Assembly: GCF_937863485.1 (NCBI RefSeq)
Contig: NZ_CALMFY010000043.1
Span: 41,506-105,505, forward strand
From: an uncultured Nostoc sp.
GTDB taxonomy: Bacteria; Cyanobacteriota; Cyanobacteriia; Cyanobacteriales; Nostocaceae
Direction of reading: 5' to 3'
Length of the DNA: 64,000 nucleotides
A model generated the notes under the pieces. The model did no database searches, had not been told where the DNA came from, and saw nothing but the letters and a program-made list of their open reading frames with translations. Positions within the stretch are counted from its first letter, which is position 1. Each line of letters begins with the position of its first letter. The translations under genes and the position numbers were made by a program. This document shows positions 32,695 to 51,970 of this stretch, one piece after another.

Positions 32695-33240
32695 TTTTAT
32701 AGTATTTATGTACTATAAAAAAGTGGCACATTCAAAAGGCATTGCTAAAATTAGTAACAGTAACCGACTGTGTTAAGTATTCTTCAAATCATGAGAAAAT
32801 TAGTTGAAAATGCATAAAATAAATCTTATAGTTTATAATATTTATTAAATTTAACTATTGCCAGTAACTTGTTAAATAGTCAGATTAAACAATTGACTGG
32901 CATTAAATCATGTCAATGCCGTAAAAATCAGATTCAAAGAAATCATAAAAGCCTCGCGCTATTTTAGTCTGGCTAAGGCTCAACGCTGTAATGTGCCACT
33001 ATTATTTTGAATATTTTTTTAGTTGAAATTCCTTTAATGAAAGCTAGAAATCCCTGGTTACCAATGAATCTGAGGATTCTGTTGATTATGAATGAGTTAG
33101 GAGTGAGCGAGAAATTATATAAAATTTCTTTGAGAAAAATCCAAAATTTCAATTTGATTGCGATAATACATTTAACTAACTCAAACTTGTACATCCTCAA
33201 CTGTTAAAGTTATCTAAACCACTACACGTGAATAGGGGCA
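32695..33240. other. AT-rich intergenic region upstream of the lipoxygenase gene
   Basis: 545 bp of strongly AT-rich DNA. It is the likely promoter region of the lipoxygenase gene. Open frames on both strands at about 32973-33207 are low-complexity and overlap each other; I do not call them genes. No repeat family found. Confidence 0.5.
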
Positions 33241-35133
33241 ATGACTGCTTCATCATCAGATAATTCGATAACTTCCCCAAGTACTCATAGTCTAGACATC
33301 ACTAGGCAAGAGTATGAATATAACTATACCTATATTCCATCTATTGCTATGGTGGATCGGGTTTCTTTTACGGAAGACTTCACCACTAATTGGTATTTTT
33401 TATTAGCCCAGCAGTTACGAGTTCTTTTTGTGAATACCTTGATTGTCAACAGAGGAAATCAGGGTTCTGAATCGATTCGTGATGATGTCGAAAGGTTTAT
33501 TTTAGAAGCCTTAATCAAGGGAGCAATACCAGCCCAAATCAGCATTCTGGTGAGAATCCTACAAATTATCCCCCAGCTTTTGCTTAAACAGATATCTCAG
33601 GATGTTAGAGAACTCGACGATCTTTTCTTTTCTATTCTTAAAGAAAACGGACTTGTGATCCTCAGAGATACTCTAAATCAGGTAATTACCCTTTTATATG
33701 AAGGACAACCCACAGGACATGCAACCAGTCTCAAGGACTACGAAAACTTGTTTGTGATGATTGGTGTACCAGCGATCGCCAAAACTTACCAGGAAGATGA
33801 AGTATTTGCCTACATGCGAGTAGCTGGCTACAATCCCGTGATGATCGAGCGAGTAACCAGTCCAGGCGATCGCTTCCCAGTCACAGACGAACATTACCAA
33901 GCAGTGATGGGAACTGACGATTCATTAGCAGCCGCAGGAGAAGAAGGAAGGCTCTACTTAGCTGACTATAAAATTTTATCCGGTGCGATCAACGGTACAT
34001 TCCCACATGAGCAAAAATATGTCTATGCTCCCATAGCACTGTTTGCTTTACCCAAAGGCTCAGACCCCACTCGTCTATTGCGTCCGATAGCGATTCAATG
34101 CGGTCAAACCCCAGGATCAGATTATCCAATCATTACCCCTAATTCTGGTAAATACGCTTGGCTTTTTGCCAAAACAGTTGTCCAAATAGCAGATGCCAAC
34201 TTCCACGAACCGATTACTCACCTAGCAAGAACTCACCTGTTAGTTGGTGTTTTTGCAATCGCAACCTATCGACAACTGCCACTTACCCATCCTCTAAGAA
34301 TTCTGCTGCGCCCGCATTTTGACAGTACCTTAGCAATTAACGATGCTGCTCAACGGATTCTAATTGCTCCTGGCGGTGGTGTCGATAGATTACTCTCAGC
34401 ATCAATCGATAACTCCCGCGTTTTAACAGTGCTAGGGTTGCAAAGCTATGGGTTCAATAGTGCCATTTTGCCCAAGCAATTCCAACAGCGCGGTGTGGAT
34501 GATCCCAACCTATTGCCTGTTTATCCTTATCGGGATGATGCACTATTAGTTTGGGATGCCATTCATCAATGGGTTTGGGACTATCTGAATTTATATTACC
34601 TCACTGATGAAGATATTCAGAAAGATACAGCCCTGCAAGCATGGGCAGCTGAAATATCAGCTTATGATGGTGGTCGTATCCCCGATTTTGGCGAGAATGG
34701 GGGCATCAAAACGCGAAATTACCTGAATGATGCCATGACGCTGATTATTTTCACCGCCAGCGCTCAACATGCTGCGGTTAACTTTCCGCAAAAAGATTTC
34801 ATGGGCTACGCCGCAGCCATCCCAATGGCAGGTTATTTACCAGCCTCAACTCTCAAAAGAGAAGTTACTGAGCAAGACTACCTGAATTTGCTCCCCCCTT
34901 TAGATCAGGCGCAACGGCAATACAATTTACTCAGCTTATTGGGATCGGTATACTATAACAAGCTGGGCCAGTATCAGCAAGGATACTTTACAGACCAGAA
35001 AGTAAAACCATTGTTACAGGCATTCCAGAGTAATCTTCAGCAGGTAGAAGGTACGATTAAGCAACGTAATTTGCATCGTCCAATTTATGAGTATCTGCTT
35101 CCTTCTAAAATTCCTCAAAGCATCAATATCTGA
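33241..35133 (+). CDS. Lipoxygenase (catalytic-domain-only, bacterial type)
   Basis: 630 residues with the non-haem iron site of lipoxygenases. His327 and His332 lie in THLARTH (H-x4-H), His510 and Asn514 in QHAAVNF (H-x3-N), and a C-terminal Ile630 (...SINI) provides the carboxylate ligand. There is no N-terminal PLAT domain, usual for cyanobacterial forms. The enzyme would oxygenate polyunsaturated fatty acids such as linoleate or alpha-linolenate to hydroperoxides; regio- and stereospecificity cannot be read here. About 110 bp downstream on the same strand is a cytochrome P450, the natural next step. Intact, start ATG 33241 after GGGGCA. Confidence 0.93.
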   Translation: MTASSSDNSITSPSTHSLDITRQEYEYNYTYIPSIAMVDRVSFTEDFTTNWYFLLAQQLRVLFVNTLIVNRGNQGSESIRDDVERFILEALIKGAIPAQISILVRILQIIPQLLLKQISQDVRELDDLFFSILKENGLVILRDTLNQVITLLYEGQPTGHATSLKDYENLFVMIGVPAIAKTYQEDEVFAYMRVAGYNPVMIERVTSPGDRFPVTDEHYQAVMGTDDSLAAAGEEGRLYLADYKILSGAINGTFPHEQKYVYAPIALFALPKGSDPTRLLRPIAIQCGQTPGSDYPIITPNSGKYAWLFAKTVVQIADANFHEPITHLARTHLLVGVFAIATYRQLPLTHPLRILLRPHFDSTLAINDAAQRILIAPGGGVDRLLSASIDNSRVLTVLGLQSYGFNSAILPKQFQQRGVDDPNLLPVYPYRDDALLVWDAIHQWVWDYLNLYYLTDEDIQKDTALQAWAAEISAYDGGRIPDFGENGGIKTRNYLNDAMTLIIFTASAQHAAVNFPQKDFMGYAAAIPMAGYLPASTLKREVTEQDYLNLLPPLDQAQRQYNLLSLLGSVYYNKLGQYQQGYFTDQKVKPLLQAFQSNLQQVEGTIKQRNLHRPIYEYLLPSKIPQSINI

Positions 35134-35242
35134 ATTAGGGACTGGGAACTAGGAACCAGGGAAGGGAGACAAGGAAAAAAAGGAAATAACTAATGCCCAA
35201 TGTTCTATGAACAATGACCACTAAAACTCCAAAGTAAATGTT

Positions 35243-36592
35243 ATGACACTTAAAGATAAAGTCCTACAAGGTCATGATCGCCAGCTTTGGCTTGCACCTA
35301 TACTAGCCAAAGTAGGTTATGACACTGCGATCGGCAAGTTTGTGCGCTTAGTTTTTTATTACATGGATGCCTCAATCATGCTCAACGCATGGCGAGACTT
35401 TCTCTACATCCGAAAGGACAATATTGGAGACAAGTATTTTGCCGTGGATCAAGCAATTATGCATTCCTCTCACTCCCAGGTGAAGGAACTAATGCAAACC
35501 CAACCACAGCTGCGGGGAAATGATTTAGGTATCATCAGAATATTAGCTCCTAGCTACCTGCTGGATAATCCTCTGAGCTTAGGAACCAACGGTAACGAAC
35601 ACACAGGACTGCGTGCTGTGTTCTTACAAGCCTTACCAGAACCGTCTCAACAGATAGACTTTTTAGGGTATCTAGTTGAGCAAAGCCTGTTAGAGGCTGC
35701 TAGACAGAGCAAATTACACATCGGCAACGATTTGCCAAAGATTATGCTGTCGATTTTGCACCAACTGGTTTTTCAGATATCTTTATCTGAGGAAGAAATC
35801 ACAGCATCGAGTAGTTACATTAAAGGTTTAGCTCTGGCATCCTTGCCAAATTTTATTAGCAAGTATCTGCTGGCAATATTAACAGCACCAAATATTCGGC
35901 ATCGTAAGCATTTAACCAAGCGATATAAACAATCTGCCAAATGGGCATCTTACTTTGAAACAGGCGCTCAGTATCAGTTGAACGAACACCAAATCGCTAA
36001 TAGCCTTTTTGATATGATTCATATTGCTGGTACTGCCGGCACAAGTGGGCTTTTGGGATCTGTTATTGGTGTTCTATGCCTGGATAATGCCCTCAGAAAT
36101 GATGTATTGTCAGAAGTCAATGCTGTTTGGAATGCCAAGGAAAGTTTAGACCCAGACGCTTTAGAACAGTCAACACTCCTCAATCAAGTGATTTTGGAAA
36201 CAGCTCGTCTCTATCCACCTGTGCGATTTGTTAGCCAACTCACCACTGAAGCAGGTGAGGTTGAGATTGGAGAACAAAAATGTCCATTCCAAAAAGGTAC
36301 TCGCTTGCTTGGCTCTATTTTGACGGCTAATCGGGATGCCAATAGATACCAAAATCCAGATGATTTTGACCTAACACGGAATTTTTCAGATATCTTATCT
36401 TGGAACGGCGAAGGGCATGAGCGAGCCTGTCCTGGTAGAACCTTATCAATTGGCTTTATCAAGATTTTCTGTTTACATCTGTTCAAGAACTATCAATGGG
36501 ACTCAATTACAGAAGTCAAGTGGGATTTTGAAAAAGTGACTGCCGTTACTCCTAATAGTTTAGTGCTACAAGGTTTTGCTCCACGGCTATGA
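35243..36592 (+). CDS. Divergent cytochrome P450 next to lipoxygenase (CYP74-like role suspected)
   Basis: 449 residues. The K-helix ExxR is E319-x-x-R322 (ILETARLYPPV). The haem-thiolate Cys396 lies in GHERACPGRTL. Two parts depart from the usual monooxygenase pattern. The I-helix reads HIAGTAGTSG, with no acid-Thr pair for oxygen activation. The haem loop is longer and lacks the FxxG spacing. Such changes are typical of CYP74-like P450s that rearrange fatty-acid hydroperoxides (allene oxide synthase, hydroperoxide lyase, divinyl ether synthase) without needing a reductase. The position after lipoxygenase supports this. The exact reaction is inference. No membrane anchor seen. Confidence 0.85.
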   Translation: MTLKDKVLQGHDRQLWLAPILAKVGYDTAIGKFVRLVFYYMDASIMLNAWRDFLYIRKDNIGDKYFAVDQAIMHSSHSQVKELMQTQPQLRGNDLGIIRILAPSYLLDNPLSLGTNGNEHTGLRAVFLQALPEPSQQIDFLGYLVEQSLLEAARQSKLHIGNDLPKIMLSILHQLVFQISLSEEEITASSSYIKGLALASLPNFISKYLLAILTAPNIRHRKHLTKRYKQSAKWASYFETGAQYQLNEHQIANSLFDMIHIAGTAGTSGLLGSVIGVLCLDNALRNDVLSEVNAVWNAKESLDPDALEQSTLLNQVILETARLYPPVRFVSQLTTEAGEVEIGEQKCPFQKGTRLLGSILTANRDANRYQNPDDFDLTRNFSDILSWNGEGHERACPGRTLSIGFIKIFCLHLFKNYQWDSITEVKWDFEKVTAVTPNSLVLQGFAPRL

Positions 36593-36707
36593 GTGAAGAT
36601 GTCAGGTTTGGAGTTAGAGAATTGTCTTGGAAGCCTACACTGACTCTTTGAGTACAGTGTAGGAGTATGTCACAGTAATATTCCAATACGGTTCACTTAA
36701 GAAAATT

Positions 36708-36781
36708 GTAGGTTGGGTAGAACGAAGTGAAACCCAACAAAGTCACGCAAGTGTTGGGTTTCGTTCCTTAACCCAACCTAC
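36708..36781. repeat. 74-bp inverted-repeat hairpin
   Basis: Left arm GTAGGTTGGGTAGAACGAAG plus TGAAACCCAACA; right arm TGTTGGGTTTCGTTCC plus TTAACCCAACCTAC; loop about 12 bp. It lies between the P450 gene and the 193-residue gene, and could form a very strong hairpin or attenuator. A known type of dispersed cyanobacterial palindrome. Confidence 0.8.
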
Positions 36782-36931
36782 GCAGAAGTTGAGTTTTAGG
36801 CTTAACTGAACTGTATTAGGTAATATTTATCTGTTTGGTGTATCGCCAAATTTTTAGACATTCTCTTATAAGCCTGTAATCATTTTTATTTTTTGTATGT
36901 ATTACTTACGAAGTAGGAATTACAAATTAGT

Positions 36932-37513
36932 ATGGCTGAATTAATCGAGAAAAAGCAACTGAATAATATTGCAACCTGGATGATTCCAATCAAACAAACA
37001 AACTTACCATCTGTCCTTAAGGGTGTATTTTTTCTGGATGGTAATCCACTGCCAGATACTTGCATCACTATGTACAATTTAGAATGGGATACACAGAAAA
37101 GAAGCTTGGATTTACCAGTCTTTGCACCGTTGCAGTGGACTTTTCATAACTCGATTGGTGGCTGGATATTACTACATTTAATTCAATGGTTTAAAGTAAC
37201 TTACAAAATTCAGTTTACAGATGAAACTTTGCAGCAAGCTCAAATCATCCCTTTTTTGCTAGGAATAGAAATTTCAACATCGATTGTAAGTTTTACAATG
37301 TCTCAAGACAAAAATTCTCCCAATGGAGATATCTGGCACAGAAAAAACGTTTGGTTCGGCGGATTTTCTAGGGCTGGAGAGTATACTCTCCGCAAGGTTG
37401 TTGATGAAGGTGGTCGTTATACTCCAGCTTTTAACAATATGCTTACTAGGGTTCCAAATGAGTGTTTAGTGATTGCAAGAAACTCAAAAGACAATGCATA
37501 TAATAATTATTAA
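36932..37513 (+). CDS. Hypothetical protein, 193 residues, downstream of lipoxygenase-P450
   Basis: A soluble protein (MAELIEKKQLNN...) with several Trp and Phe residues (NSIGGWILLHLIQWFK, NVWFGGFSRAGEYTL) and no domain I recognise. It follows the lipoxygenase and P450 on the same strand after a 339-bp gap with a hairpin repeat. ATG 36932 has no strong ribosome site. A role as a third member of the putative oxylipin cluster is possible but unsupported. Confidence 0.6.
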   Translation: MAELIEKKQLNNIATWMIPIKQTNLPSVLKGVFFLDGNPLPDTCITMYNLEWDTQKRSLDLPVFAPLQWTFHNSIGGWILLHLIQWFKVTYKIQFTDETLQQAQIIPFLLGIEISTSIVSFTMSQDKNSPNGDIWHRKNVWFGGFSRAGEYTLRKVVDEGGRYTPAFNNMLTRVPNECLVIARNSKDNAYNNY

Positions 37514-37668
37514 AAAGCCTACTTCTTCACCTAAAACAGCGCCTAAATCTGCTTTCTTTCTCACCTTTTAGATTATTTGCATTGATTTTTCTCAACTCAA
37601 CTTCCTGAGTAATTTTGTGCTTTTTAGTCTAAAGTCCACCCTACAAGAGGGCGAGTAGACAGCTTAAT

Positions 37669-38856
37669 TTAAGAATATTGCGTGATTACGGGTAGCTGAT
37701 CGTTGAGTACCCAATCGCCGATCGCTCGCAATTTGTAGTCCACAGGATCGTGGAGAGTAAAGGTTCGTAAATCCCGCCAGTAACGGTCAAATCCATATTT
37801 GGTTGCAGTGGCGCGAGTTCCGGTAACTTCAAAGATGCGATTGGTAATATCTATACCTACACGGCTAGCTAATCCTCTGGCTGCGAAAACTGCGATCGCA
37901 ACTTCTCCTCTCTCTTGATAAGTGAGTGCTGCATCTTTTTCCCATGCTGCTTGCAGCTTCTCGGCTGCTTGGTCAGCTAGAGCGATCGCAGCTTGGATTT
38001 CAATCCAAAAATCTCCGTAATGATGCAGAATATATGGGTCTTGAGTAGCACTATCTACCCCTGATGTAATCCACGCTTTAGTAGTAGTTTTAGTGTACTC
38101 ACGAGCCGCCGCGAAGGCTCCTTTAGTAATTCCCAGAAAAACGTTGGTTTTTGTTAGCTGGGCAATAATAGCAAGAAAAGTTGAGAAGGCAGTATCAGGG
38201 GAATTGGGTGGCCCCAAAATCTCATCTTTCTCTACTAGAACATTGTTAAATGTATAACTACCACTATCAGTGCGACGTTGCCCGATGTTGTCCCAATCTT
38301 GATTAGAAACTAACCCTTCCCTGTCTTTGGGAATTATGAATATGAAGGGCAACTCTACGCCATCTTCCAAAGCGGAGAATGCCCGCAAATCTGCAACGGA
38401 AATTCCTGTGCCAAAGCTTTTAACACCATTAACCCGAAAATTATCGCCTTCTGGGTTAATTTTCAGCCTAGTGTCCCGCGGATTCATGGCGTTTGCCCAA
38501 AATAAGTTATTTTTAGCAGTTTCTCTATAATATTTTTCTTTTTGGGCTGGTGTGCCCAAAACGTGACCCAAAGTCGTCAAGTTGAGATGATTACCATATA
38601 ACTGACCAATTGAACCATCTGCTTTTGACAGTTTTCTGACAATTTTTAAGGCATCAATCCAAGTTGCGCCAATCCCACCATATTGCTTGGGGACAATCAG
38701 CGGTAACAAACCACTTTCACGCAGTTTATTAATTTCTTCTTCTGGAACTCCAGCTTGGGCATCCCGTTCAACTGCGGATTGAGCAAGTTCTTTGGACAAA
38801 GAAGATGCTACGTTAATGTAATCCTTTGGTTTTGTAATATCTAGCACCATAATCAA
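37669..38856 (-). CDS. Acyl-CoA dehydrogenase-family flavoprotein (SfnB/DszC-like monooxygenase group)
   Basis: 395 residues with the acyl-CoA dehydrogenase architecture: N-terminal helices (LRESGLLPLIVPKQYGGIG, GSIGQLYGNHL), middle beta domain (FWANAMNPRDTRL, GVKSFGTGISVAD) and C-terminal helical domain (EVTGTRATATKYGFDRYWRDLRTFTLHDP). The C-terminal motif with RYWRDLRTFTLHDP resembles the SfnB/DszC/flavin monooxygenase branch, which uses FMN and O2 on sulphur or aromatic compounds. No catalytic Glu for acyl-CoA oxidation is obvious. Start at 38856 or the Met two codons in. Convergent with the 36932 gene. Confidence 0.8.
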   Translation of the reverse strand: MIMVLDITKPKDYINVASSLSKELAQSAVERDAQAGVPEEEINKLRESGLLPLIVPKQYGGIGATWIDALKIVRKLSKADGSIGQLYGNHLNLTTLGHVLGTPAQKEKYYRETAKNNLFWANAMNPRDTRLKINPEGDNFRVNGVKSFGTGISVADLRAFSALEDGVELPFIFIIPKDREGLVSNQDWDNIGQRRTDSGSYTFNNVLVEKDEILGPPNSPDTAFSTFLAIIAQLTKTNVFLGITKGAFAAAREYTKTTTKAWITSGVDSATQDPYILHHYGDFWIEIQAAIALADQAAEKLQAAWEKDAALTYQERGEVAIAVFAARGLASRVGIDITNRIFEVTGTRATATKYGFDRYWRDLRTFTLHDPVDYKLRAIGDWVLNDQLPVITQYS

Positions 38857-41729: not shown

Positions 41730-42806
41730 ATGACTATTCGTCTAACTGGGACAGAAGACTTTGGGGAATTTTGCCAAGATGTGCAGTTGTTTAATGACTA
41801 TGAAGGAAAATCACAATTGTCTACTTGGTTTGGTAAATACAGCTTTCACTGGACTGGGCTTCGCCATAATCTTGGGCTAGGAATTCATGACAATGAGTAT
41901 TCTCAACCAGTAATTTTTGAGCAAAAACACGATGACTCACCTTTGCTGACATCTAAATTTTTTCTCTCTAGTGGTGTCAGAACTGTTACACCAAATGTGC
42001 CCGGAGTCAGTGACGATTATGAAGAAGTTGCGGGTTATAACTACTTATTTTGCTTGCCTGATGTTCGGGAGTTTGAACATTTTAATGCAAACCAACGCAC
42101 TCAGTGTATCAGTATTTATTGGTATCCGGATTTACTTGACAGTTTCCAAGGAAGCTTTGAAGAGTTGCCTACTTTGCTAGAGCAGTTGAGAGAAAATCCC
42201 ATAAAAGAGCGCTTCCATCAGCCGTTAGAAGCAACTACACCTGCAATGTGGTTAGTACTCAAACAAATATTGCAGTGTCCGTTTCGAGAAAAACTTAGAC
42301 AAATGTATTTAGAAGCAAAAGTGCTAGAACTACTGACACTTCAGATTGCACAATGGGGGGAAAATCATCAGGTATTGGGGCGATCGCTTTATTTCCGTGC
42401 CGATGAAATTGAACGTTTGCATCACGCCAAAGCTATTTTAAATCAAAGGCTGCCACATCCACCTTCTCTACTAAATTTAGCCAAAGAAATCGGACTCAAT
42501 GACTTTAAGCTCAAACGCGGATTTCGAGAAGTGTTTGGGACTACAGTATTGGGATATGTGCAATCCCTGCGGCTAGAGCAGGCAAAACAGCTACTCCGAA
42601 GCACTAATTTGCTGATCGCACAAATTGCTTATCAAGTGGGATACGAAAGTACGAGTCATTTTAGCCATCTGTTTAAGCGGCAATTTGGCATGACTCCTAG
42701 AGAATATCGTCAGCAAAAGGCTTGTAGCAAAAAGGACATCCCGATTCCGATAAAAAAAAATCCGGTTTCAGATATTTGCGCTTACCTGAATTTCGTATTC
42801 TCATAA
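41730..42806 (+). CDS. AraC-family regulator, PchR type
   Basis: 358 residues. The C-terminal AraC/XylS domain (about 235-335) has two helix-turn-helix units: LNLAKEIGLNDFKLKRGFRE, GTTVLGYVQSLRLEQAKQLL, then IAQIAYQVGYESTSHFSHLF and GMTPREYR. The N-terminal 230 residues are the usual PchR-type sensor region. PchR-like proteins sense iron-siderophore complexes and activate receptor genes; the neighbours fit. A decayed copy of its C-terminal domain is at 49755-50103. The last codons run straight into the conserved leader of the next receptor. ATG 41730, GAG-type weak ribosome site. Confidence 0.92.
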   Translation: MTIRLTGTEDFGEFCQDVQLFNDYEGKSQLSTWFGKYSFHWTGLRHNLGLGIHDNEYSQPVIFEQKHDDSPLLTSKFFLSSGVRTVTPNVPGVSDDYEEVAGYNYLFCLPDVREFEHFNANQRTQCISIYWYPDLLDSFQGSFEELPTLLEQLRENPIKERFHQPLEATTPAMWLVLKQILQCPFREKLRQMYLEAKVLELLTLQIAQWGENHQVLGRSLYFRADEIERLHHAKAILNQRLPHPPSLLNLAKEIGLNDFKLKRGFREVFGTTVLGYVQSLRLEQAKQLLRSTNLLIAQIAYQVGYESTSHFSHLFKRQFGMTPREYRQQKACSKKDIPIPIKKNPVSDICAYLNFVFS

Positions 42807-42875
42807 ACAGAGTTACATAAAATAATTCTCAAGTATCGACTCTGTTTTGAGAAATCCGGTTGGGTGTGTGGAATG
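42797..42875 (+). promoter_or_regulatory. Conserved leader of the receptor genes, copy 1
   Basis: From ATTCTCATAAACAGAGTTA through AATTCTCAAG, ACTCTGTTTTGAGAAAT and GGTTGGGTGTGTGGA to the receptor start. Nearly the same sequence precedes the second receptor (46744-46823) and the receptor pseudogene (50174-50254). TTCTCAA...TTGAGAA is an interrupted inverted repeat and a candidate binding site for the AraC regulator or Fur. It also marks the duplication boundary. Confidence 0.6.
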
Positions 42876-45521
42876 ATGAAACTGTTGCGTAGGCGTAGCC
42901 CGTCGTTGACATCGCTGTTTATTTCCTGGTTTTTTATTGCTGTGGTTATACAACCAACTCAGGCAAAGCAAGTAACTGAAATTCATCGTGTGCAAGAACT
43001 AGACCGTTCTGCAAAAACAGTCAAAGAATGGTTTGCTCAAATAGAACAGCAGAACCCCCCTTTACCAGCCCAAAATCAAGGGGGTGAAGTTATACAAGTG
43101 ACTTCAGTCAAGGCAAACCCCACTTCTTCGGGTGTGGAGGTGATTTTACAGACATCCCTTGGGCAACAATTGCAAGTAGTTAATCGCTCGAATGGCAATA
43201 ACTTTATTGCTGACATTCCCAATGCCCAACTGCGTTTACCCAACGGTGACGCTTTTACATTTCCCTCTACTAAACCAATTGCAGGTGTTAGCGAAATAAC
43301 GGTAACAAACTTTGATGCTACTACTATCCGGGTGAGTGTGACGGGGGAAGCCGATGTACCGATTGTTGAGTTGTTTGACAGTCCGGATGAGGGTATTATC
43401 TTCTCTGTGGCTAGTTCTGCATCTTCTGCACAACAGCCGCAGCAACAGCCTCAAACGCAAAACTCCACCCCTTCAGGACAGAGTGAGGGGTCACAACAAA
43501 CACAGCCTAGTCTTCCATTAACACAGAGTGATGAGCCAATTGAACTTGTGGTTACAGGTGAGCAAGATGGATACACTGTGCCAGATGCAAGTACTGCAAC
43601 TTTAACTGATACACCTTTACGTGATATTCCTCAGTCGATTCAGGTGGTTCCCCAACAGGTAATCAAGGATCAAGGAATTACTCGGATTGTGGATGCGGTT
43701 CGCAATGTATCTGGTACTCAGATAGGAGGAGGCTATGGCAATCTTTTCGGTGAAGTCAGGATTCGCGGTTTTTTCGCCGGTAGCTTAGTAGATGGGTTTA
43801 CTGGTACTAATTTACTTTCTCCTAATGGTGCCAACATTGAACAGGTGGAAGTGCTCAAAGGTCCAGCTTCAGTACTGTATGGAGAAGGAGATCCGGGTGG
43901 TCTGGTAAATTATGTGACGAAAAAACCTTTAAGCAATCCTTATTATTCTGCTAGTTTCACGGCTGGCAGCTACGATTACTACAATCCTGCAATCGATCTA
44001 TCTGGGCCACTCACGACCGATAAAAAGTTATTGTATCGTTTGAATATTTCCTATGAAAATTCTGGTAGCTATCGGGATTACATTGAAAACGATATATTAT
44101 ATATTTCTCCGGTTCTCACCTACAAGATTAGTGATGCCACAACCCTAGACTTCGCCTATGAATATCTGAATTCTAAACAAGGGTTTGACCGAGGCTTTAG
44201 TCCAGAAGCAATCTATCTAACGTTGCCCAGAAATCGCCTTTTAAATCAACCGGATGATTTTTCCAATACTGAAAGCCATCGCCTTGCGCTAACACTCAAT
44301 CAGCAGTTTAGTGAAAATTGGCGGCTGAGAAGCAGATTTTCCGCACAATTTGATGAAGGTGGTGAAAAAGTTACCCAAATTGGCAATCCTCTTTTAGAGG
44401 ATGGTCGAACGTTGCCGCGACAGCAGTATGGTGATGGTCCGAATTATACACAAAGTTATGCTCTGCAAACCAACTTAATTGGTAAATTCAACACGGGTGC
44501 GATCGCCCATCAACTGCTGTTAGGTCTGGACTGGAGCCATAGCACCTCTGATACCAATAACGCTTATGGTATTGATGATTTCCCTTCGATAGATATTTTT
44601 GAGCCAAACTATAACGTTCTCTTGCCTGAGCGCATCTATAGCGGCCCTTATACCACTAAAAATAACGGCATAGGAATTTATCTGCAAGACCAGGTGACAT
44701 TGTTGCCCAATCTGAAGTTAGTTTTAGGCGGGAGATATGACTTTGCTGACACAACCACTGAAGATTTTAGTATTCCTGATGAGCCGCAAAAGTCTGGATT
44801 TAACTCTCAAGCCTTTTCACCGCGTGTAGGGATTGTTTATCAACCAATCGAACCGATTTCGCTGTACGCCAGCTACAATCGCTCTTTTGTATCCAACTTA
44901 GGGACTCTAAAAGTAGGCCGGACGCAAATAGAGCCTTCATTCAGTACACAGTACGAAGTCGGCATCAGGGCTGAACTTTTAGACAAGCGACTTTCAGTAA
45001 ACCTTGCAGCCTATGACATTGCTAAAACAAATATCCCCACTACAGACCCTAACAACGACCAATTCTCAATTGCAATTGGAGAAGTGAAAAGTCGAGGAAT
45101 TGAACTGGATGTAGCCGGGGAAATTTTACCGGGTTGGAAAGTGATTGCCTCTAGTTTTCTCAATGATGCTTATGTTAGTAAAGGTTATGCCGGACTTCCC
45201 GAAGGTCGCCATCTGACAAATGCACCATATCATGGCGCGAGTTTCTGGACAACTTATGAATTTCAAAAGGGTAACTTGCAAGGATTACAGTTTGGTGCGG
45301 GGTTGTTTTTTAAAGGCGATCGCACTGCCAACCTCGATGATCCGTTTACTCTACCGTCTTATATCACAACCGATGCCTTAATCTCTTACAAACGGGATAA
45401 CTGGCAAGCTGCGCTCAATTTTAAGAATATCTTCAATGTCAAATATTACGAATCAAACGACTATCTCACCTTCCCTCAAGCACCATTTACCGTACAGGGC
45501 ACAATTTCAGTGACCTTTTGA
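42876..45521 (+). CDS. TonB-dependent siderophore receptor with AMIN domain, copy 1
   Basis: About 881 residues from ATG 42876 (ATGAAACTG, shared by all three copies). Signal peptide (MKLLRRRSPSLTSLFIS..., cut near PTQA-KQ) with its basic part encoded by an SIR. A linker with VKEWFAQI, an AMIN domain (about 70-185; VIQVTSVKANPTSSGVEV), a Gln/Pro-rich linker, a TonB-box-like EPIELVVTGEQD, a plug (DIPQSIQVVPQQVI, VEVLKGPASVLYGEGDPGG, VNYVTKKP) and a 22-strand barrel ending GTISVTF. It imports ferric siderophores across the outer membrane. Lies 69 bp after the AraC gene and 111 bp before the PepSY gene. Confidence 0.93.
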   Translation: MKLLRRRSPSLTSLFISWFFIAVVIQPTQAKQVTEIHRVQELDRSAKTVKEWFAQIEQQNPPLPAQNQGGEVIQVTSVKANPTSSGVEVILQTSLGQQLQVVNRSNGNNFIADIPNAQLRLPNGDAFTFPSTKPIAGVSEITVTNFDATTIRVSVTGEADVPIVELFDSPDEGIIFSVASSASSAQQPQQQPQTQNSTPSGQSEGSQQTQPSLPLTQSDEPIELVVTGEQDGYTVPDASTATLTDTPLRDIPQSIQVVPQQVIKDQGITRIVDAVRNVSGTQIGGGYGNLFGEVRIRGFFAGSLVDGFTGTNLLSPNGANIEQVEVLKGPASVLYGEGDPGGLVNYVTKKPLSNPYYSASFTAGSYDYYNPAIDLSGPLTTDKKLLYRLNISYENSGSYRDYIENDILYISPVLTYKISDATTLDFAYEYLNSKQGFDRGFSPEAIYLTLPRNRLLNQPDDFSNTESHRLALTLNQQFSENWRLRSRFSAQFDEGGEKVTQIGNPLLEDGRTLPRQQYGDGPNYTQSYALQTNLIGKFNTGAIAHQLLLGLDWSHSTSDTNNAYGIDDFPSIDIFEPNYNVLLPERIYSGPYTTKNNGIGIYLQDQVTLLPNLKLVLGGRYDFADTTTEDFSIPDEPQKSGFNSQAFSPRVGIVYQPIEPISLYASYNRSFVSNLGTLKVGRTQIEPSFSTQYEVGIRAELLDKRLSVNLAAYDIAKTNIPTTDPNNDQFSIAIGEVKSRGIELDVAGEILPGWKVIASSFLNDAYVSKGYAGLPEGRHLTNAPYHGASFWTTYEFQKGNLQGLQFGAGLFFKGDRTANLDDPFTLPSYITTDALISYKRDNWQAALNFKNIFNVKYYESNDYLTFPQAPFTVQGTISVTF
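42887..42915. repeat. SIR element encoding part of the receptor signal peptide, copy 1
   Basis: GCGTAGGCGTAGCCCGTCG then TTGACATCGC. It matches the SIR consensus except TTG for TAG, so the reading frame (RRRSPSLTS) stays open. Same position in copy 2 (46835-46863, also TTG) and copy 3 (50266-50294, TAG). Confidence 0.8.
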
Positions 45522-45632
45522 CCCCACCCTAACCCTCTGACAAGTGTAGGTTTTTTACAAGAATACTTGAAAAGGGACAAGGAGTATCCTACTGATTCAT
45601 CAAGCCTGAGCTTGTGCAAAGGAGCGTCTACC

Positions 45633-46772
45633 TTGAGTAATAAAAAACTACGTAATTTCCTATTTACCCTGCACCGTTATATTGGTTTAGCGATCGCACC
45701 AATTGCCATCTTAGTTGGCTTAACTGGGAGCCTGATCGTCTTCCAGGGCGAAATCAATGACTTTCAACGACATCAACAGTTTGGCAGTATTATTCCCCAG
45801 GGCGAACGCTTATCGTTGGAAGTTATCCTAGATTTTGTCAAAGCTGCCTATGCCAACCAGCCTCAAATGGCATTCCAAAGGGTTTATTTCCCTTCTAAAC
45901 CGGATGATCTATTTGATGTCGTCATCTCAGTTCCGAGCAACGATTGGGTAGAAGTCTACGTCAACCCCTACACAGGGGTAATTCTGGGCGACAGTCTGCA
46001 TCCCAACGCCGTACAGCGCTTTCTCCAGATTGTTTATCAACTCCACACCTCATTAAAATTAGGCGATCTGGGTTTACAGATTGTCGGTGTAGTGGGTTTA
46101 GGGATGTCCATTGTTGCGATCACGGGAATTATTTTGTGGCCCGGTTGGCGCAAGCTGATGGCAGGTTTCAAAATTAAGTGGAATGCCCACCCCAAGCGCC
46201 TTAACTTTGATCTACACAAGGTATCAGGTATTACTGCCGCTATATTTTTACTGTTGACATTTTTCACTGGATTTGCCTGGAATTTGGGCTATGTTGACCC
46301 TCTGATTCGTGCCATCACCTTCAGTCCATCGCTTCCTGAGCTTGTTTCCCAGCCGTTAGCAGGTCAATCGCCCCGACCACTCAGCCAGCAGATGAAAACG
46401 GCTCAACTTGCCCTGCCCGACGGAGCATTGCGGAGCATTGACTTAACAAAAGACCCGAAAGCGCCTCTGCGATTGCGGATGAAGCTCCCCCAAGAGCGGG
46501 AGGAATACGGTATGAGCAATGTCTATCTCGATCAATACAGCGGTCAGGTTTTACGAGTTGATAATTCGTTAAAGGCATCGTTAGGCGATAAGATTCTCAA
46601 TTCCTTTCAGCCACTGCACTTCGGCATCTTCGGCGGTTTACCTACCCGCATTCTTTACGTCTTCGTTGGTCTGGCTCCGTTAATTCTATTTATTACTGGC
46701 TTTGTGATGTGGTGGGTTCACAAACGCAAGCAGAAAGATGATTATTCTCATAAACGGAGTTATATAAACTAA
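45633..46772 (+). CDS. PepSY-associated transmembrane protein, copy 1
   Basis: About 379 residues from TTG 45633, chosen because AAAGGAG lies nine bases upstream; an ATG at 45567 would add 22 unconserved residues. N-terminal helix (FTLHRYIGLAIAPIAILVGL), PepSY-type periplasmic part (VYVNPYTGVILG), helices around VGLGMSIVAITGIILWPGWRK and DLHKVSGITAAIFLLLTFFTG, a second PepSY-like stretch (VYLDQYSGQVLRV) and a last helix (LAPLILFITGFVMWW). Such proteins adjoin siderophore receptors and are thought to help reduce or move ferric siderophores in the inner membrane. Its tail (SHKRSYIN) is encoded by the start of the duplicated leader. Confidence 0.88.
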   Translation: MSNKKLRNFLFTLHRYIGLAIAPIAILVGLTGSLIVFQGEINDFQRHQQFGSIIPQGERLSLEVILDFVKAAYANQPQMAFQRVYFPSKPDDLFDVVISVPSNDWVEVYVNPYTGVILGDSLHPNAVQRFLQIVYQLHTSLKLGDLGLQIVGVVGLGMSIVAITGIILWPGWRKLMAGFKIKWNAHPKRLNFDLHKVSGITAAIFLLLTFFTGFAWNLGYVDPLIRAITFSPSLPELVSQPLAGQSPRPLSQQMKTAQLALPDGALRSIDLTKDPKAPLRLRMKLPQEREEYGMSNVYLDQYSGQVLRVDNSLKASLGDKILNSFQPLHFGIFGGLPTRILYVFVGLAPLILFITGFVMWWVHKRKQKDDYSHKRSYIN

Positions 46773-46823
46773 TTCTTAAATAATCAGCTTTGTTTTGAAA
46801 AATACGATTAGGTGTGTGGAGTT

Positions 46824-49451
46824 ATGAAACTGTTGCGTAGGCGTAGCCCGTCGTTGACATCGCTTTTTATTTCCTGTTTTTTTATTACTGTAGTCATACA
46901 ACCAACTCAGGCAAAGCAAGTAACTGAAATTCAAAGTGTACAAGAACTAAAGCGTTCTGCAAGAACAGTCAAAGAATGGTTCGCTCAGATAAAACAGCAG
47001 AACCCACCAGCCCAAAATCAGGAAGATGAAGTTATACAAGTGACTTCAGTGAAGGCAAATCCCACCTCTTCGGGTGTGGAGGTGGTTTTACAGACCTCAA
47101 AAGGGCAACAATTGCAAGTAGTGAATCGCAGTTTGGGTAATAACTTTATTGCTGATATTCCCAATGCCCAACTGCGTTTACCTAATAGCGAGGCATTCAC
47201 ATTCCGCTCCCAAAAACCAATTGCAGGGGTTAGTGAGATAACAGTAACAAACTTTGATGATAATACTATCAGGGTGACGGTGACGGGGGAAGCAGGTGTA
47301 CCAATTGTTGAATTGTTTGACAGTGCAGATGAGGGTATTATCTTCTCTGTGGCTAGTGCTGCACCTGACACACAGCCGCAGCAGCAAAACCCCACCCCGC
47401 CACCGAGGGAAGGGGAGAGGTCACAACAGACACAGCCTAGTCTTCCATCAGCAGAAGGTGACGAACCGATTGAGCTTGTAGTGACAGGTGAACAAGATGG
47501 ATACACTGTGCCAGAAGCGAGTACTGCAACCAGGACTGATACACCTTTACGTGATATTCCCCAGTCGATTCAGGTAGTTCCCCAACAGGTGATCAAGGAT
47601 CAGGGAATCACGCGGATTAATGATGCTGTTCGCAATGTGTCTGGTACATCCTTTACAACGGGGTATGGCAATTCCGAAAACGGTGTTAACATTCGCGGCT
47701 TTAATGCCAACTCTTTAAAAGATGGATTTACCACTACGTCTATCTTCACCAATGCCACCAATATTGAGCAGGTAGAGGTACTCAAAGGTCCGGCTTCAGT
47801 GCTATATGGACAGGTGGAACCGGGTGGAGTGATCAATTATGTCACGAAAAAACCTTTGAGCAACCCCTATTATGCTGCTAATTTCACTGCTGGAAGCTAC
47901 AACTATTACAATGGGGCGATTGATTTGTCTGGACCGCTGACGACCGATAAAAAGTTATTGTATCGGTTGAATGTTTCTTACGAGGATTCCGATAGCTTTC
48001 GGGATTTAGTTTTCAACAAGGTTTTCTTTATCTCTCCTGCGTTTACCTACAAAATCAGCGATAGAACAACCCTGGATTTCGCCTATGAATATCTCAATTT
48101 TAACTCCAGTTTTGATCGCGGTTTTCCTAACGACCCTAGATCGTTTAATCTGCCGATCAATCTTTCTTTAAATGATTACAATGCCGCTCAAGACATTGAA
48201 AGCCATCAAATCGATTTAACGCTCAACCATCAGTTTAATGATCATCTCCAGATCAGGAGCCGGTTTGAGGCGAAGTTTGAACATTATTACAGTGCTGTGG
48301 TCAATGAGTATGCTTTTGCCGAAGATGGTCAAACAGTATTGCGAGACTTCTACGGTGGTGATTCTAATTCCACCAACCTCGTTCTGCAAACCGATTTAAT
48401 TGCTAAATTTAAAACTGGTTCCATTGAGCATCAACTGTTAGCAGGATTAGAATGGAAACCAAGTTTTGGTGATAGTACTGACTTTAGTTCTGTTGAGGGG
48501 TATCCATCGATAAACATTTACAATCCGGTCTATGGCTTTCCCTTTCCTGCGGTTACTACGTCAAATGGTAACAGTAACACTGATACTGTCGGAATTGCCT
48601 TGCAAGACCAGGTGACATTGCTGCCAAATGTCAAGTTGCTTGTAGGTGGCAGATATGACTTTATCAGCACAGACAGTGACAGTATTGCTGACATTAGCAT
48701 CCCTAGCGAACCGCAAAAGTCCGGTTCCGACTCCCAAGCCTTTTCCCCGCGCGTAGGCATTGTTTATCAACCAATCGAACCCATCTCGCTCTACGCCAGC
48801 TACAGTCGCTCTTTTACACCCAACTTAGGAACCCTAAGAGCAGACCTGACGCAAATAGAGCCTTCTCGTGGTACACAGTATGAAGTTGGTGTCAAAGCCG
48901 AGCTTTTTGGTGGACGGCTGATATCATCACTAGCAGCCTATGACATTGCCAAAACAAACATCCCTACCACAGACCCTGATAATCCTCAATACTCAATCGC
49001 TTTGGGAGAAGTCAAAAGCCGAGGAATTGAATTCGATATTGCCGGCGAAATCTCACCTGGTTGGAAAGTTATTGCTTCTGCGTATCTCAACGATACCTAT
49101 ACCAGCAAAGACAGCAATTCGACAATCATCGGGGGGGCTTTGCCAGCTATTCCTAGTCAGGGTGCAAGTCTGTGGACAACCTACGAGATTCAAAAAGGGA
49201 GTTTGAAAGGGTTACAGTTTGGAGGAGGTATATTTTATGTGGGCGATCGGGTTAATGATTACTTTGACCCGATTATTACCCTTCCTTCCTATGTCAGAAC
49301 TGATGCTGTCATTTCTTATAAACGTGATAATTGGCGAGCTGCACTCAATTTCAAGAATATCTTTAATGTCAGATATTACGAAACCAATTGGCCTCTTATT
49401 TTCCCCCAAGCACCATTTACCTTACAGGGCACAATTTCTGTGGAGTTTTAA
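46824..49451 (+). CDS. TonB-dependent siderophore receptor with AMIN domain, copy 2
   Basis: About 875 residues, same architecture as copy 1: SIR-derived signal peptide (MKLLRRRSPSLTSLFIS), AMIN domain (VIQVTSVKANPTSSGVEV), TonB box-like EPIELVVTGEQD, plug (DIPQSIQVVPQQVIKDQGIT, VEVLKGPASVLYGQVEPGG) and barrel ending GTISVEF. The first 250 residues and the last 200 are very close to copy 1; the central barrel loops differ much more. This suggests selection or exchange at the loops that contact the siderophore. Starts 51 bp after the PepSY gene. Confidence 0.93.
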   Translation: MKLLRRRSPSLTSLFISCFFITVVIQPTQAKQVTEIQSVQELKRSARTVKEWFAQIKQQNPPAQNQEDEVIQVTSVKANPTSSGVEVVLQTSKGQQLQVVNRSLGNNFIADIPNAQLRLPNSEAFTFRSQKPIAGVSEITVTNFDDNTIRVTVTGEAGVPIVELFDSADEGIIFSVASAAPDTQPQQQNPTPPPREGERSQQTQPSLPSAEGDEPIELVVTGEQDGYTVPEASTATRTDTPLRDIPQSIQVVPQQVIKDQGITRINDAVRNVSGTSFTTGYGNSENGVNIRGFNANSLKDGFTTTSIFTNATNIEQVEVLKGPASVLYGQVEPGGVINYVTKKPLSNPYYAANFTAGSYNYYNGAIDLSGPLTTDKKLLYRLNVSYEDSDSFRDLVFNKVFFISPAFTYKISDRTTLDFAYEYLNFNSSFDRGFPNDPRSFNLPINLSLNDYNAAQDIESHQIDLTLNHQFNDHLQIRSRFEAKFEHYYSAVVNEYAFAEDGQTVLRDFYGGDSNSTNLVLQTDLIAKFKTGSIEHQLLAGLEWKPSFGDSTDFSSVEGYPSINIYNPVYGFPFPAVTTSNGNSNTDTVGIALQDQVTLLPNVKLLVGGRYDFISTDSDSIADISIPSEPQKSGSDSQAFSPRVGIVYQPIEPISLYASYSRSFTPNLGTLRADLTQIEPSRGTQYEVGVKAELFGGRLISSLAAYDIAKTNIPTTDPDNPQYSIALGEVKSRGIEFDIAGEISPGWKVIASAYLNDTYTSKDSNSTIIGGALPAIPSQGASLWTTYEIQKGSLKGLQFGGGIFYVGDRVNDYFDPIITLPSYVRTDAVISYKRDNWRAALNFKNIFNVRYYETNWPLIFPQAPFTLQGTISVEF
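46835..46863. repeat. SIR element encoding part of the receptor signal peptide, copy 2
   Basis: GCGTAGGCGTAGCCCGTCG then TTGACATCGC, identical to the copy at 42887. Frame kept open by TTG. Confidence 0.8.
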
Positions 49452-49507
49452 TTCAATCTTTATGCTGATTCAGGCTGATTTCCATATCGAATTTTTCACA
49501 AGAACAG

Positions 49508-49618
49508 TGGCCGGGTTGGCGTCGGTTAATTTCCGGCTTCAAAATTAAGTGGAATGCTCATCCCAAGCGGGTTAACTTTGATCTTCACAAAATTACTGGC
49601 GCGATCGCAGCAGAAACC
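49508..49618 (+). pseudogene. PepSY protein remnant
   Basis: Reads WPGWRRLISGFKIKWNAHPK then RVNFDLHKITGAIAAET, aligning with WPGWRKLMAGFKIKWNAHPK..., LNFDLHKVSGITAA of the 45633 gene. It is a 37-codon central scrap; both ends are missing. It follows copy-2 receptor, as the intact PepSY follows copy 1. Confidence 0.85.
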
Positions 49619-49640
49619 ATCAGTCATTGCACAGATGTAA

Positions 49641-49746
49641 TATAGCAATCCTATCTGATTTCGTTCAAATTCGTGGTCTCCAGATCCCCGACTTCTCTAA
49701 GAAGTCGGGGATCTAACTTTTCACGAGTGATTTAGGATTGCTATAT
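49641..49746. mobile_element. MITE-like element with outer TATAGCAATCCT repeats and inner hairpin
   Basis: Outer inverted repeats ATATAGCAATCCT (49641-49653) and AGGATTGCTATAT (49734-49746) enclose the hairpin GATCCCCGACTTC...GAAGTCGGGGATC (49682-49712). About 105 bp. It sits exactly between the PepSY and AraC remnants and may have replaced what joined them. Shortened relatives are at 5536 and 6534. Confidence 0.65.
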
Positions 49747-49754
49747 ATTAAGAG

Positions 49755-50103
49755 CGATCACTTTATTTCCGTCCCAATGAAATTCAACGTTTATATTACG
49801 CCAAAGCTATTTTAAATCAAACGCTCCACAATCCACCCTCTCTATTAAATCTAGCCAAAGAAATCGGACTCAATGACTTTAAGCTCAAGCGGGCATTTAA
49901 AGAAGTTTTTGGGACTACAGTGTTGGGATATGTGCAATCTTTGCGGCTAGAGCAAGCACAACGGCTACTGCGAGACACTAATTTCACTAGTTGCAGAAAT
50001 TGCTTCTCAAGTAGGGTACGAGAATATAGGTCATTTTAGGTATCTATTTAAGCGGCAATTTGGTATCACTCCCAGAGAATATCGTCAGCAAAAATATTTA
50101 TAG
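49755..50103 (+). pseudogene. AraC-family regulator remnant (C-terminal domain, frameshifted)
   Basis: Reads RSLYFRPNEIQRLYYAKAIL, NLAKEIGLNDFKLKRAFKEV and GTTVLGYVQSLRLEQAQRLL, closely matching the intact regulator from residue 226. A +1 shift after LLRDTNF moves the rest (VAEIASQVGYENIGHFRYLF, GITPREYRQQ) to another frame, ending TAG 50101-50103. The sensor half is absent. Followed directly by a receptor leader, as in the intact unit. Confidence 0.88.
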
Positions 50104-50254
50104 CAAAAAATACATCCCGATTCCGTCTTAAAAAATCCGGTTTCAGTATTTATGCGCTCGCTCAAATTTTGGTATTCTCTTAAATAGAGTTATTTAAAAA
50201 TAATTCTCAAGTAATCGACTCTGTTGTGAAAAATCTGGTTGGGTGTGTGGAGTG

Positions 50255-50682
50255 ATGAAACTGTTGCGTAGGCGTAGCCCGTCGTAGACATCGCTATTTA
50301 TTTCCTGTTTTTTTATTGCTGTTGTCATACAACCAACTCAGGCAAAGCAAGTAACTGAAATTCAAAGTGTGCAAGAACTGAACCGTTCTGCAAGAACGGT
50401 CAAAGAATGGTTTGCTCAGATACAACAGCAGAACCCGCCAGCCCAAAGCCAGAAAGGTGAAGTTGTACAAGTGACTTCGATCAATCTGATCCGCCAAACT
50501 TCAAGCTACCTGCCTACACTCGATTCGATGCGGCTCTATTTTACCGACGCAATAACTGGGAAGTAGCAATTAACGCTGAGAATTTGTTTGATGTCGAATA
50601 CTACACAAATTCGTGCTATTCTGCTGCAAATTCTCCAGGTGCGCCTTTTACCTTAATTGGGTCACTCACATTGCGGTTTTAA
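50255..50682 (+). pseudogene. TonB-dependent receptor pseudogene, copy 3 (internal deletion, nonsense)
   Basis: Same leader and ATGAAACTG start as copies 1 and 2. TAG at codon 11 (50285-50287) comes from the consensus SIR sequence. After that stop the frame keeps the family N-terminus (TSLFISCFFIAVVIQPTQA, VKEWFAQIQQQNPPAQ, VVQVTS) to about 50480. There it jumps, out of frame, to a barrel end: LPAYTRFDAALFYRRNNWEV, NLFDVEYYTNS, GSLTLRF-stop at 50680-50682. About 750 codons are missing. The barrel end resembles a different receptor type from copies 1 and 2, so two genes may have been joined. Confidence 0.88.
50266..50294. repeat. SIR element, copy 3, creating a stop codon
   Basis: GCGTAGGCGTAGCCCGTCG then TAGACATCGC, the consensus SIR. 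In this frame TAG is a stop codon; the two intact receptors have TTG here. Confidence 0.85.
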
Positions 50683-50851
50683 TTGAGAAAACCAATCTCG
50701 TATTTGGAATCAAAAGGTATAAAGATTTTCAGGTTTACTTTTCAGTAGAAACTGGCGTGGGATTGAGGGCGGTAATCCGGGGAACAATAAAAAGCTACCT
50801 CCTCATCCTACCAATTGCTCAAACTTGAAATTGTGCAAAGGAGTGTTTACC

Positions 50852-51970
50852 TTGAGTAATAAAAAACTACGTAACTGGATATTTACCCTACATCGCTACT
50901 TGGGTCTAACACTAGGACTGATTGCAATCATCATCGGATTGACGGGTAGTTTATTGGTTTTCCACACAGAAATTGACAGCTTGGATCAGCATCTTCAAAG
51001 TGGCAGCATTATCCCTCAAGGAAAACAACTACCTATCGAAGCTGTTGTCAACACTGTCAAAAAATCCTACGCCGACCAACCAGACGCAACTATTCAACGG
51101 TATTACCCGTCCACAAAGTCAGATCAGTCAATAAAGGTTATCCTCAAAACCAAAGAAAGTGATTGGCTGCCAATTTATGTCAACCCTTACACAGGGGTAA
51201 TCCTCAACCCCAACTCCAAGCCAAGTTCGATCCAAAAGACATTTTTAGACATTATCTATCCACTTCACTACACCCTCTTAAGTGGTGACATTGGCACGAA
51301 GTTTGTTGGCATTGTTGGGTTACTGTTCACAATCTTGAGCATTACAGGCATTATCTTATGGCCTGGTTGGCGTAAATTGATTGCTGGCTTCAAAATCAAG
51401 TTTGACGCCCATCCCAAGCGAGCGAACTTTGATATTCACAAAGTTGCTGGTGTGATTACAGCTACATTTCTAGTCTTTACCTTTTTCACAGGCTTTTGCT
51501 GGAACTTTTCTGAATTTGTCAACCCGATAATCTACGCAGCTACTTTCAGCAAACCTCAACCCAATTTAGTTTCTGTACCTATTTCCGGTCAGTTGCCGCT
51601 AGGACTAAAAGACCAGTTAAAAATCGCTCAAGCTGCCCTGCCCAATGCATCACTTAGTCTAATTGGCTTTCCAAGTAAACCAGAAGAGACTTTTTGGTTT
51701 AACTTTAATCTTGGCGATGTTTTTCTTGACCAGTATAGCGGCAAGGTTTTACAAGTATCTGCGATGGCGACTGCTTCATTAGGCGATCGCATCCTGAATT
51801 CCTTTAACGATTTGCACTATGGCACTTTCTGGGGACTTCCATCCCGTATTTTCTACATGTTTGTGGGATTTGCACCGTTGATTTTATTTATTACTGGTTT
51901 TCTGATGTGGAAGCATCGTTATCGGACAAAATCTCCTACAGAATTTATTAACCAGTCCCTTTCAAGGTAA
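50852..51970 (+). CDS. PepSY-associated transmembrane protein, copy 3
   Basis: About 372 residues from TTG 50852, with AAAGGAG nine bases upstream exactly as in copy 1 (ATG 50825 would add nine residues). Same order: FTLHRYLGLTLGLIAIIIGL, IYVNPYTGVILN, VGLLFTILSITGIILWPGWR, DIHKVAGVITATFLVFTFFT, VFLDQYSGKVLQV, FAPLILFITGFLMW. About half identical to copy 1 by eye. The only intact gene of the third unit. The stop at 51970 is followed by the psbA terminator hairpin, so the two transcripts converge. Confidence 0.88.
   Translation: MSNKKLRNWIFTLHRYLGLTLGLIAIIIGLTGSLLVFHTEIDSLDQHLQSGSIIPQGKQLPIEAVVNTVKKSYADQPDATIQRYYPSTKSDQSIKVILKTKESDWLPIYVNPYTGVILNPNSKPSSIQKTFLDIIYPLHYTLLSGDIGTKFVGIVGLLFTILSITGIILWPGWRKLIAGFKIKFDAHPKRANFDIHKVAGVITATFLVFTFFTGFCWNFSEFVNPIIYAATFSKPQPNLVSVPISGQLPLGLKDQLKIAQAALPNASLSLIGFPSKPEETFWFNFNLGDVFLDQYSGKVLQVSAMATASLGDRILNSFNDLHYGTFWGLPSRIFYMFVGFAPLILFITGFLMWKHRYRTKSPTEFINQSLSR

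Follow-up and report, generated by a model that had tools for sequence, protein, structure and literature searches.

The subject of this report is a three-gene cassette within a 64,000-nucleotide stretch of DNA from an uncultured Nostoc species (contig NZ_CALMFY010000043.1, positions 41,506 to 105,505), which we call the window. A lipoxygenase (LOX) gene, a gene for a non-canonical cytochrome P450 and a short third gene, here named orf3, follow one another on the + strand, all in the same direction. The genes and the gaps between them are listed below, with stop codons included in the coordinates.

33241-35133, + strand: lipoxygenase (LOX), 630 amino acids, intact open reading frame (ORF), Pfam PF00305 (E 4.5e-59)
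35134-35242, + strand: LOX-P450 gap, 109 nt (4-662 nt in 44 relatives)
35243-36592, + strand: non-canonical cytochrome P450, CYP227A1 type, 449 amino acids, Pfam PF00067
36593-36931, + strand: P450-orf3 gap, 339 nt (-4 to 708 nt in 48 relatives)
36932-37513, + strand: orf3, third gene of the cassette, 193 amino acids, with a beta-rich, barrel-like model

The five iron ligands of the LOX (His327, His332, His510, Asn514 and the C-terminal Ile630) are invariant in all 46 sequences compared, those of the window and 45 relatives. PF00305 was the sole match in a Pfam scan of the 630-residue protein, which therefore lacks a catalase-related N-terminal domain, and the best solved relatives in a structure-chain search were chains named arachidonate 15-lipoxygenase. 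The residue at the Coffa site is A370, again alanine in 46 of 46 sequences; it was identified because it aligns with the position that differs, Ala against Gly, between chains 4g32 and 5lc8, the latter of which we take to be the Ala420Gly mutant of the Pseudomonas aeruginosa enzyme. Gly378/379, an earlier candidate for this site, was dropped on the same comparison. Alanine at the Coffa site goes with S oxygenation, a rule that has exceptions, and the hydroperoxide is therefore predicted to be probably of S configuration. The genome of the window holds a single LOX match at 1e-20 and desaturase matches in nine places, two of which are halves of one gene.

The P450 scores 60.1 bits against PF00067 (cut-off 22.8), and its AlphaFold2 (AF2) model (pLDDT 84) has the P450 fold in fold searches. 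In an alignment of the window sequence with 44 of 50 further copies, Cys396, the ExxR residues Glu319 and Arg322, and Arg379 are invariant in all 45 sequences. The I-helix departs from the usual pattern: residues 260-268 read HIAGTAGTS in 39 of the 45 copies and differ from this by one residue in the remaining six, so that Ala (42) or Leu (3) stands in place of the acid and Gly (45) in place of the catalytic Thr. Eight ordinary cyanobacterial P450s aligned beside CYP227 carry an acid followed by Thr at this point (GYETTS, AGTDTTA and similar). The acid-Thr/Ser pair typical of reductase-dependent monooxygenases is thus not present in any of the 45 copies, and although one pairwise alignment moves the I-helix register by a residue, the pair is missing in both registers. 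Compared with the eight ordinary enzymes, the Cys loop (SWNGEGHERACPG in the window copy) carries two extra residues, and the Phe that they have seven positions ahead of the Cys is replaced by Gly. A first-pass annotation, made from the window sequence, had described a LOX with five iron ligands and, directly behind it, a P450 with Cys396 and ExxR, no acid-Thr pair and an altered haem loop; all of this holds.

That annotation stopped at two genes, and it missed both orf3 and the name that the P450 already has. Both cloning primers published for CYP227A1 (PMC3411444; here and below, statements on cited papers refer to their accessible parts) match the ends of the P450 ORF with 0 mismatches in 7 of the 50 copies from named loci, including that of N. 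punctiforme NIES-2108 (L074). The window copy, 93% identical to the L074 copy, matches the forward primer exactly and the reverse primer with 3 mismatches. We assign the window P450 to the CYP227A1 type on these primer matches, rather than on the CYP227A1 sequence itself. No published function for CYP227A1 was found in the open-access literature.

The orf3 protein appears to represent a new family. Among 46 aligned members (the window and 45 of 49; of the four rows left out, two contain stops, one is truncated and one contains N), no known family was matched, the best Pfam E-value being 0.016. The AF2 model (pLDDT 87.8) is beta-rich, with 11 strands, and fold searches with it returned lipocalin-like matches, weak ones only. 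Allene oxide cyclase was considered and, as an identification by sequence, rejected: its profile PF06351 was not among the matches of the 46 members at E up to 1. A search of the window genome for it gave a single match at 0.7, on another contig. The cyclase was also not among the 50 matches listed for either fold search, which does not rule such a fold out.

The cassette is widely conserved. We collected 49 named cyanobacterial loci (numbered with the prefix L), with P450s 63-96% identical to that of the window, from Nostoc, Calothrix, Rivularia, Leptolyngbya, Leptothoe and others; identities to the window are 54-91% for the LOX and 54-92% for orf3. The order and strand of LOX, P450 and orf3 are kept in 45 of the 49, which argues that the LOX-P450 pairing is not due to chance, and in two more (L071 and L111) the contig ends just upstream of the P450. 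The third gene follows the P450 in all 49, although in L073 the contig ends within it and in L080 and L085 it is interrupted by stops. When ORFs of at least 100 amino acids from these loci were clustered, the P450 was present in 49, orf3 in 48 and the LOX in 45, while the next family reached 10, on both strands; no reductase or ferredoxin family was conserved in the cassette. The genes also occur together: among 99 related genomes, a LOX of at least 74% identity is present in 22, and a full-length CYP227 in all 22 of these (Fisher p 4e-21, with genomes that are not independent). CYP227 is found in 23 of the 99, the odd one being G004, where no LOX was matched and the P450 begins 131 bp away from the edge of its contig. 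Many genomes without CYP227 have LOXs of other types, which are no more than 51% identical.

Several variants of the cassette were seen. In L096 (6001-8779) a tandem duplicate of CYP227, the copies being 68% and 62% identical to that of the window, lies between LOX and orf3. Decaying cassettes include L055 (fragments of P450 and orf3), L126 (orf3 with stops), L193 (a split orf3) and L081 (a stop in the P450 and a shortened LOX). Plasmid carriage was considered and dropped, as a plasmid collection yielded neither a match spanning 80% of CYP227 nor any match to orf3.

CYP227 is not the only P450 found behind a LOX. Searching 291 genomes of the class with a second P450 seen near orf3 revealed two further families, B and C, in 14 places in 13 genomes; directly upstream is a LOX in seven of these, while orf3 is the neighbour in three, a hydrolase alone in one and a contig end in one. 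P450-B (L122:7437-8798, L174:6995-8341, L177:6833-8332 and relatives) has IA(G/A)(L/M)QGPLH as its I-helix motif and RICP around the Cys. Its members score too low for the Pfam p450 cut-off (of those scanned, some match at E 0.12 or 0.26 and others not at all), which family C passes. The two families are related to each other over their full length (2.3e-28). An alpha/beta hydrolase follows P450-B in L173, L177 and L178, and the two that were searched, those of L177 (2e-77) and L178 (1.8e-35), have solved epoxide hydrolases as their best matches. The third gene is present in 21 of 61 genomes of family f2, and P450-B adjoins it in 9 of the f2 loci fetched. Very long patatin-like proteins are encoded directly downstream of LOX and P450-B in L174 (2673-6800) and L175 (3148-6954), with TIGR03607 over its cut-off in L174 and PF01734 plus DUF3376 in both; these are plausible lipases feeding the LOX.

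A midpoint-rooted LOX tree of 45 rows, which included the window and 16 of 45 CYP227-paired LOXs and left out the partial LOX of L181, bears on these partnerships. Four LOXs followed by P450-B (L174-L177) nest within a clade made up of the 17 sampled CYP227-paired LOXs and one LOX from the L090 genome (support 100/99), the P450-B rows grouping with Leptolyngbya-type rows (98/93). Two others, the LOX of L178 and the family-C one of L184, are not part of this clade; L177 and L178 are long rows. Because LOXs followed by P450-B are nested among those paired with CYP227, the P450 slot has been refilled in one LOX lineage, and its replacement by another non-canonical P450 is what would be expected if the job of the slot is to process the LOX product. 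In a control of 20 loci with other LOX types, none of families A-C was adjacent (tblastn), and in a small control of eight ordinary-P450 loci no LOX lay within about 1.5 kb (8/8).

What the genomes show directly is that the genes are intact and keep their active-site residues, that the P450 has lost the acid-Thr pair, that the genes are linked co-linearly and occur together, and that the P450 partner was swapped within one LOX clade. We think it probable that these genes form an oxylipin cassette in which a LOX hydroperoxide passes to a reductase-free CYP227, which makes an epoxide-type oxylipin that is then handed to the orf3 protein. The LOX would oxygenate linoleate or linolenate; CYP227 would take the resulting hydroperoxide as both substrate and oxygen donor, its haem cleaving the O-O bond with no need of a reductase or O2, and would rearrange it to an epoxide-type product. 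Allene oxides, aldehydes and divinyl ethers are not distinguishable as products by sequence, and an allene oxide or epoxyalcohol would be favoured over a lyase product because epoxide-hydrolase-like genes sit in the sister P450-B cassettes. The orf3 protein may act after the P450, as a cyclase, an isomerase or a binding protein for the reactive product. The first-pass annotation had already suggested an oxylipin pathway of LOX and non-canonical P450, with its neighbourhood in related genomes to be looked at; that suggestion is strengthened by the neighbourhood kept in 45 of 49 loci, the lost acid-Thr pair, the lack of a conserved reductase family and the refilled P450 slot. A more specific version, which we regard as unlikely, is that cyanobacteria have their own line of LOX, allene oxide synthase and cyclase, in which CYP227 would make an unstable allene oxide and the orf3 barrel would cyclise it to an OPDA-like cyclopentenone, convergent with plant jasmonate biosynthesis, the P450 slot having been filled at different times by CYP227, B and C.

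A number of findings weigh against the proposed pathway. In L090 and L093 another gene lies upstream of the P450 and the LOX is not adjacent (2 of 49 loci), although the L090 genome has a 76% identical LOX elsewhere. In 2 of its 14 places P450-B/C stands without a LOX, orf3 or hydrolase as neighbour, and the three hydrolases linked to P450-B match no NCBIfam model over its cut-off. No P450 was found beside orf3 in L185-L190; neither P450 nor LOX adjoins it in L185-L188, while a LOX is near it in L189 and L190. Finally, at least 2 of the 20 loci with other LOX types carry a different P450 next to the LOX (L207 and L220; Pfam p450 1.4e-20 and 2.9e-18), a figure based on Pfam scans of those two loci, where a P450 was visible, so that further kinds may have been overlooked; some LOX-P450 adjacency could therefore have other causes. 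These two P450s, directly upstream of the LOX (L207:7378-8697, L220:3253-4608), have IDLT or VDLT in the I-helix and an ordinary-looking Cys loop (HTCFG, HTCHG), and are possibly a fourth kind.

The placement of CYP227 among P450s bears on the same question. The first-pass annotation had likened it to the CYP74 type, and this was not borne out. Features of the CYP74 clan include an Asn in the I-helix groove, a nine-residue insertion in the haem loop, an ERR triad, a PPV motif and the Cys ligand (PMC8124189). CYP227 has the triad (E319/R322/R379) and C396 in 45 of 45 copies and YPPVR in its consensus, none of which is specific to the clan. The Asn, as in plant allene oxide synthase (AOS) and prostacyclin synthase, is absent from residues 260-268 in all 45 copies, a further point against our reading, and the nine-residue insertion is missing from a loop just two residues longer than in the eight ordinary P450s; because these two clan features fail, membership was rejected and CYP227 filed outside CYP74. 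Nor did sequence or fold searches show any CYP74 preference: in a profile search CYP74A2 ranked 9th at 1.3e-5, after ordinary P450s and CYP152, and, again unfavourably, no peroxide-type P450 was preferred in the fold search. CYP74 enzymes need no O2 or redox partners, and their I-helix differs (PMC10813956); our best reading is that CYP227 would work like them without belonging to their clan. In fungal 8R- and 9R-AOS it is Thr, not Asn, that faces the haem iron (PMC13049297), and in a by-eye alignment with the prostacyclin synthase motif (same source), to which we give low weight, T264 of CYP227 would occupy the iron-facing site.

Placement in an ordinary monooxygenase family, the outcome named in the first-pass annotation as adverse, was not what we found, yet CYP227 stands about equally near ordinary P450s and LOX-linked ones. 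Scores from hhalign are 79-124 against ordinary cyanobacterial P450s, 85 against P450-B and 137 against P450-C; CYP227 and P450-B share 21% identity over 348 aligned columns (1.1e-10), and ordinary P450s align with CYP227 about equally well. A 27-row P450 tree splits CYP227, B and C from the eight ordinary P450s (100/99), but it is unrooted. A single LOX-linked ancestor of the three is therefore not claimed, and the fact that common descent is not established also counts against the pathway.

Of the alternatives, the likeliest is a hydroperoxide lyase (hemiacetal synthase), in which CYP227 would yield short aldehydes and oxo-acids and the orf3 protein would be a non-catalytic binding or delivery protein; we judge this possible but improbable. 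Such an activity was reportedly observed long ago in the cyanobacterium Oscillatoria, and the reaction would start in the same way as in any P450 acting on a hydroperoxide. Few residues switch between lyase and synthase activity in CYP74 enzymes (PMC10813956). The epoxide-hydrolase-like genes that follow the P450 in several P450-B cassettes fit an epoxide better, although this argument comes from another P450 family.

CYP227 could instead be a conventional monooxygenase that depends on a reductase and has a divergent I-helix; it would then hydroxylate either the hydroxy or hydroperoxy fatty acids that come from the LOX or some lipid unrelated to them. Its good match to PF00067, canonical ExxR and PERF-like Arg, and its equal nearness to ordinary cyanobacterial P450s and to other LOX-linked ones, would all agree with this, and a P450 can lack the acid-Thr pair and yet work as a monooxygenase. 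When P450s of three strains, among them ten of N. punctiforme including CYP227A1, were fused to a reductase and screened on 47 small molecules, CYP110E1 was reported as the active one, with no mention of a fatty acid hydroperoxide in the accessible part of the paper (PMC3411444). Together with that result, the loss of the pair in 45 of 45 copies, the lack of a conserved reductase or ferredoxin family in the cassette, and the tight linkage to and co-occurrence with LOX make this reading unlikely. Hydroperoxide detoxification, with the P450 as a peroxidase or peroxygenase on lipid hydroperoxides and no signalling product, is more doubtful still: CYP152 fatty-acid peroxygenases are among the weak profile matches of CYP227 (6e-6), but the Arg-Pro that the CYP152 I-helix carries is absent from AGTAGTS, and a detoxifier has no need of its own upstream LOX.

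Other features of the window lie around the cassette. The P450-orf3 gap contains a repeat-like stretch at about 36700-36785, which is AACCCAAC-rich with AACCCAAC and GTTGGGTT halves; the 30-base form that was searched occurs once in the window. No inverted repeat was detected in this gap at the settings used, and counts of terminators and promoters in 32700-37700 were close to those of shuffles. Just downstream of orf3, an acyl-CoA-dehydrogenase-like gene (37669-38856, - strand) comes closest to the models of the sulfur flavoenzymes DszC and SfnB, without reaching the cut-off of either; of the 23 stretches fetched from relatives, L033 alone has it, some 7 kb away from orf3. Further on (41730-51970), an AraC regulator, two TonB-dependent receptors with AMIN domains and two PepSY_TM proteins resemble a siderophore-iron uptake island.

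Little is known of what happens to the hydroperoxides that bacterial LOXs produce, and the cassette gives a named P450 a function that can be tested; with CYP227A1 known by name from N. punctiforme PCC 73102, knock-out and assay look feasible. The survey also exposes a P450 family that lies below the Pfam cut-off and adds an uncharacterised third protein. The cassettes suggest that, outside the CYP74 clan too, LOX has repeatedly acquired peroxide-using P450 partners. Many cyanobacteria carry LOX, P450 and orf3 together, and the set resembles the route by which plants turn membrane fats into oxidised signal molecules, in a bacterial version that seems not to have been explored; the plant-like route of the first-pass annotation stands as an analogy only.

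We found no description of the LOX-CYP227-orf3 cassette in the open-access literature, which was the scope of our search. CYP227A1 of N. punctiforme PCC 73102 is linked to the cassette by its two ORF-end primers, exact in 7 of 50 copies, and the accessible part of the source gives its name and cloning, with no mention there of a function or a LOX neighbour (PMC3411444). NpLOX1 of N. punctiforme (ZP_00106490.1, 630 amino acids; cited in PMC10177866) has the length and species group of the cassette LOX and, judged from these, is probably its orthologue. The system of LOX, CYP74 and allene oxide cyclase shares the three-part layout of a LOX, a non-canonical P450 and a small protein, in our case with a beta-rich, barrel-like model; unlike it, CYP227 lacks the Asn and the haem-loop insert, and orf3 has no sequence match to the cyclase. 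Catalase-related AOS-LOX fusions of cyanobacteria and corals (PMC8124189, PMC11507377) likewise pair a haem protein with a LOX in cyanobacteria, but there a catalase-type haem domain is fused to the LOX, whereas the window encodes a thiolate P450 in a separate gene. In the fungal dioxygenase-P450 fusions (LDS, EAS, AOS) and prostacyclin synthase (PMC13049297), the partner is a relative of cyclooxygenase rather than a LOX, and the likeness lies in a self-sufficient P450 that acts on the peroxide of its partner dioxygenase.

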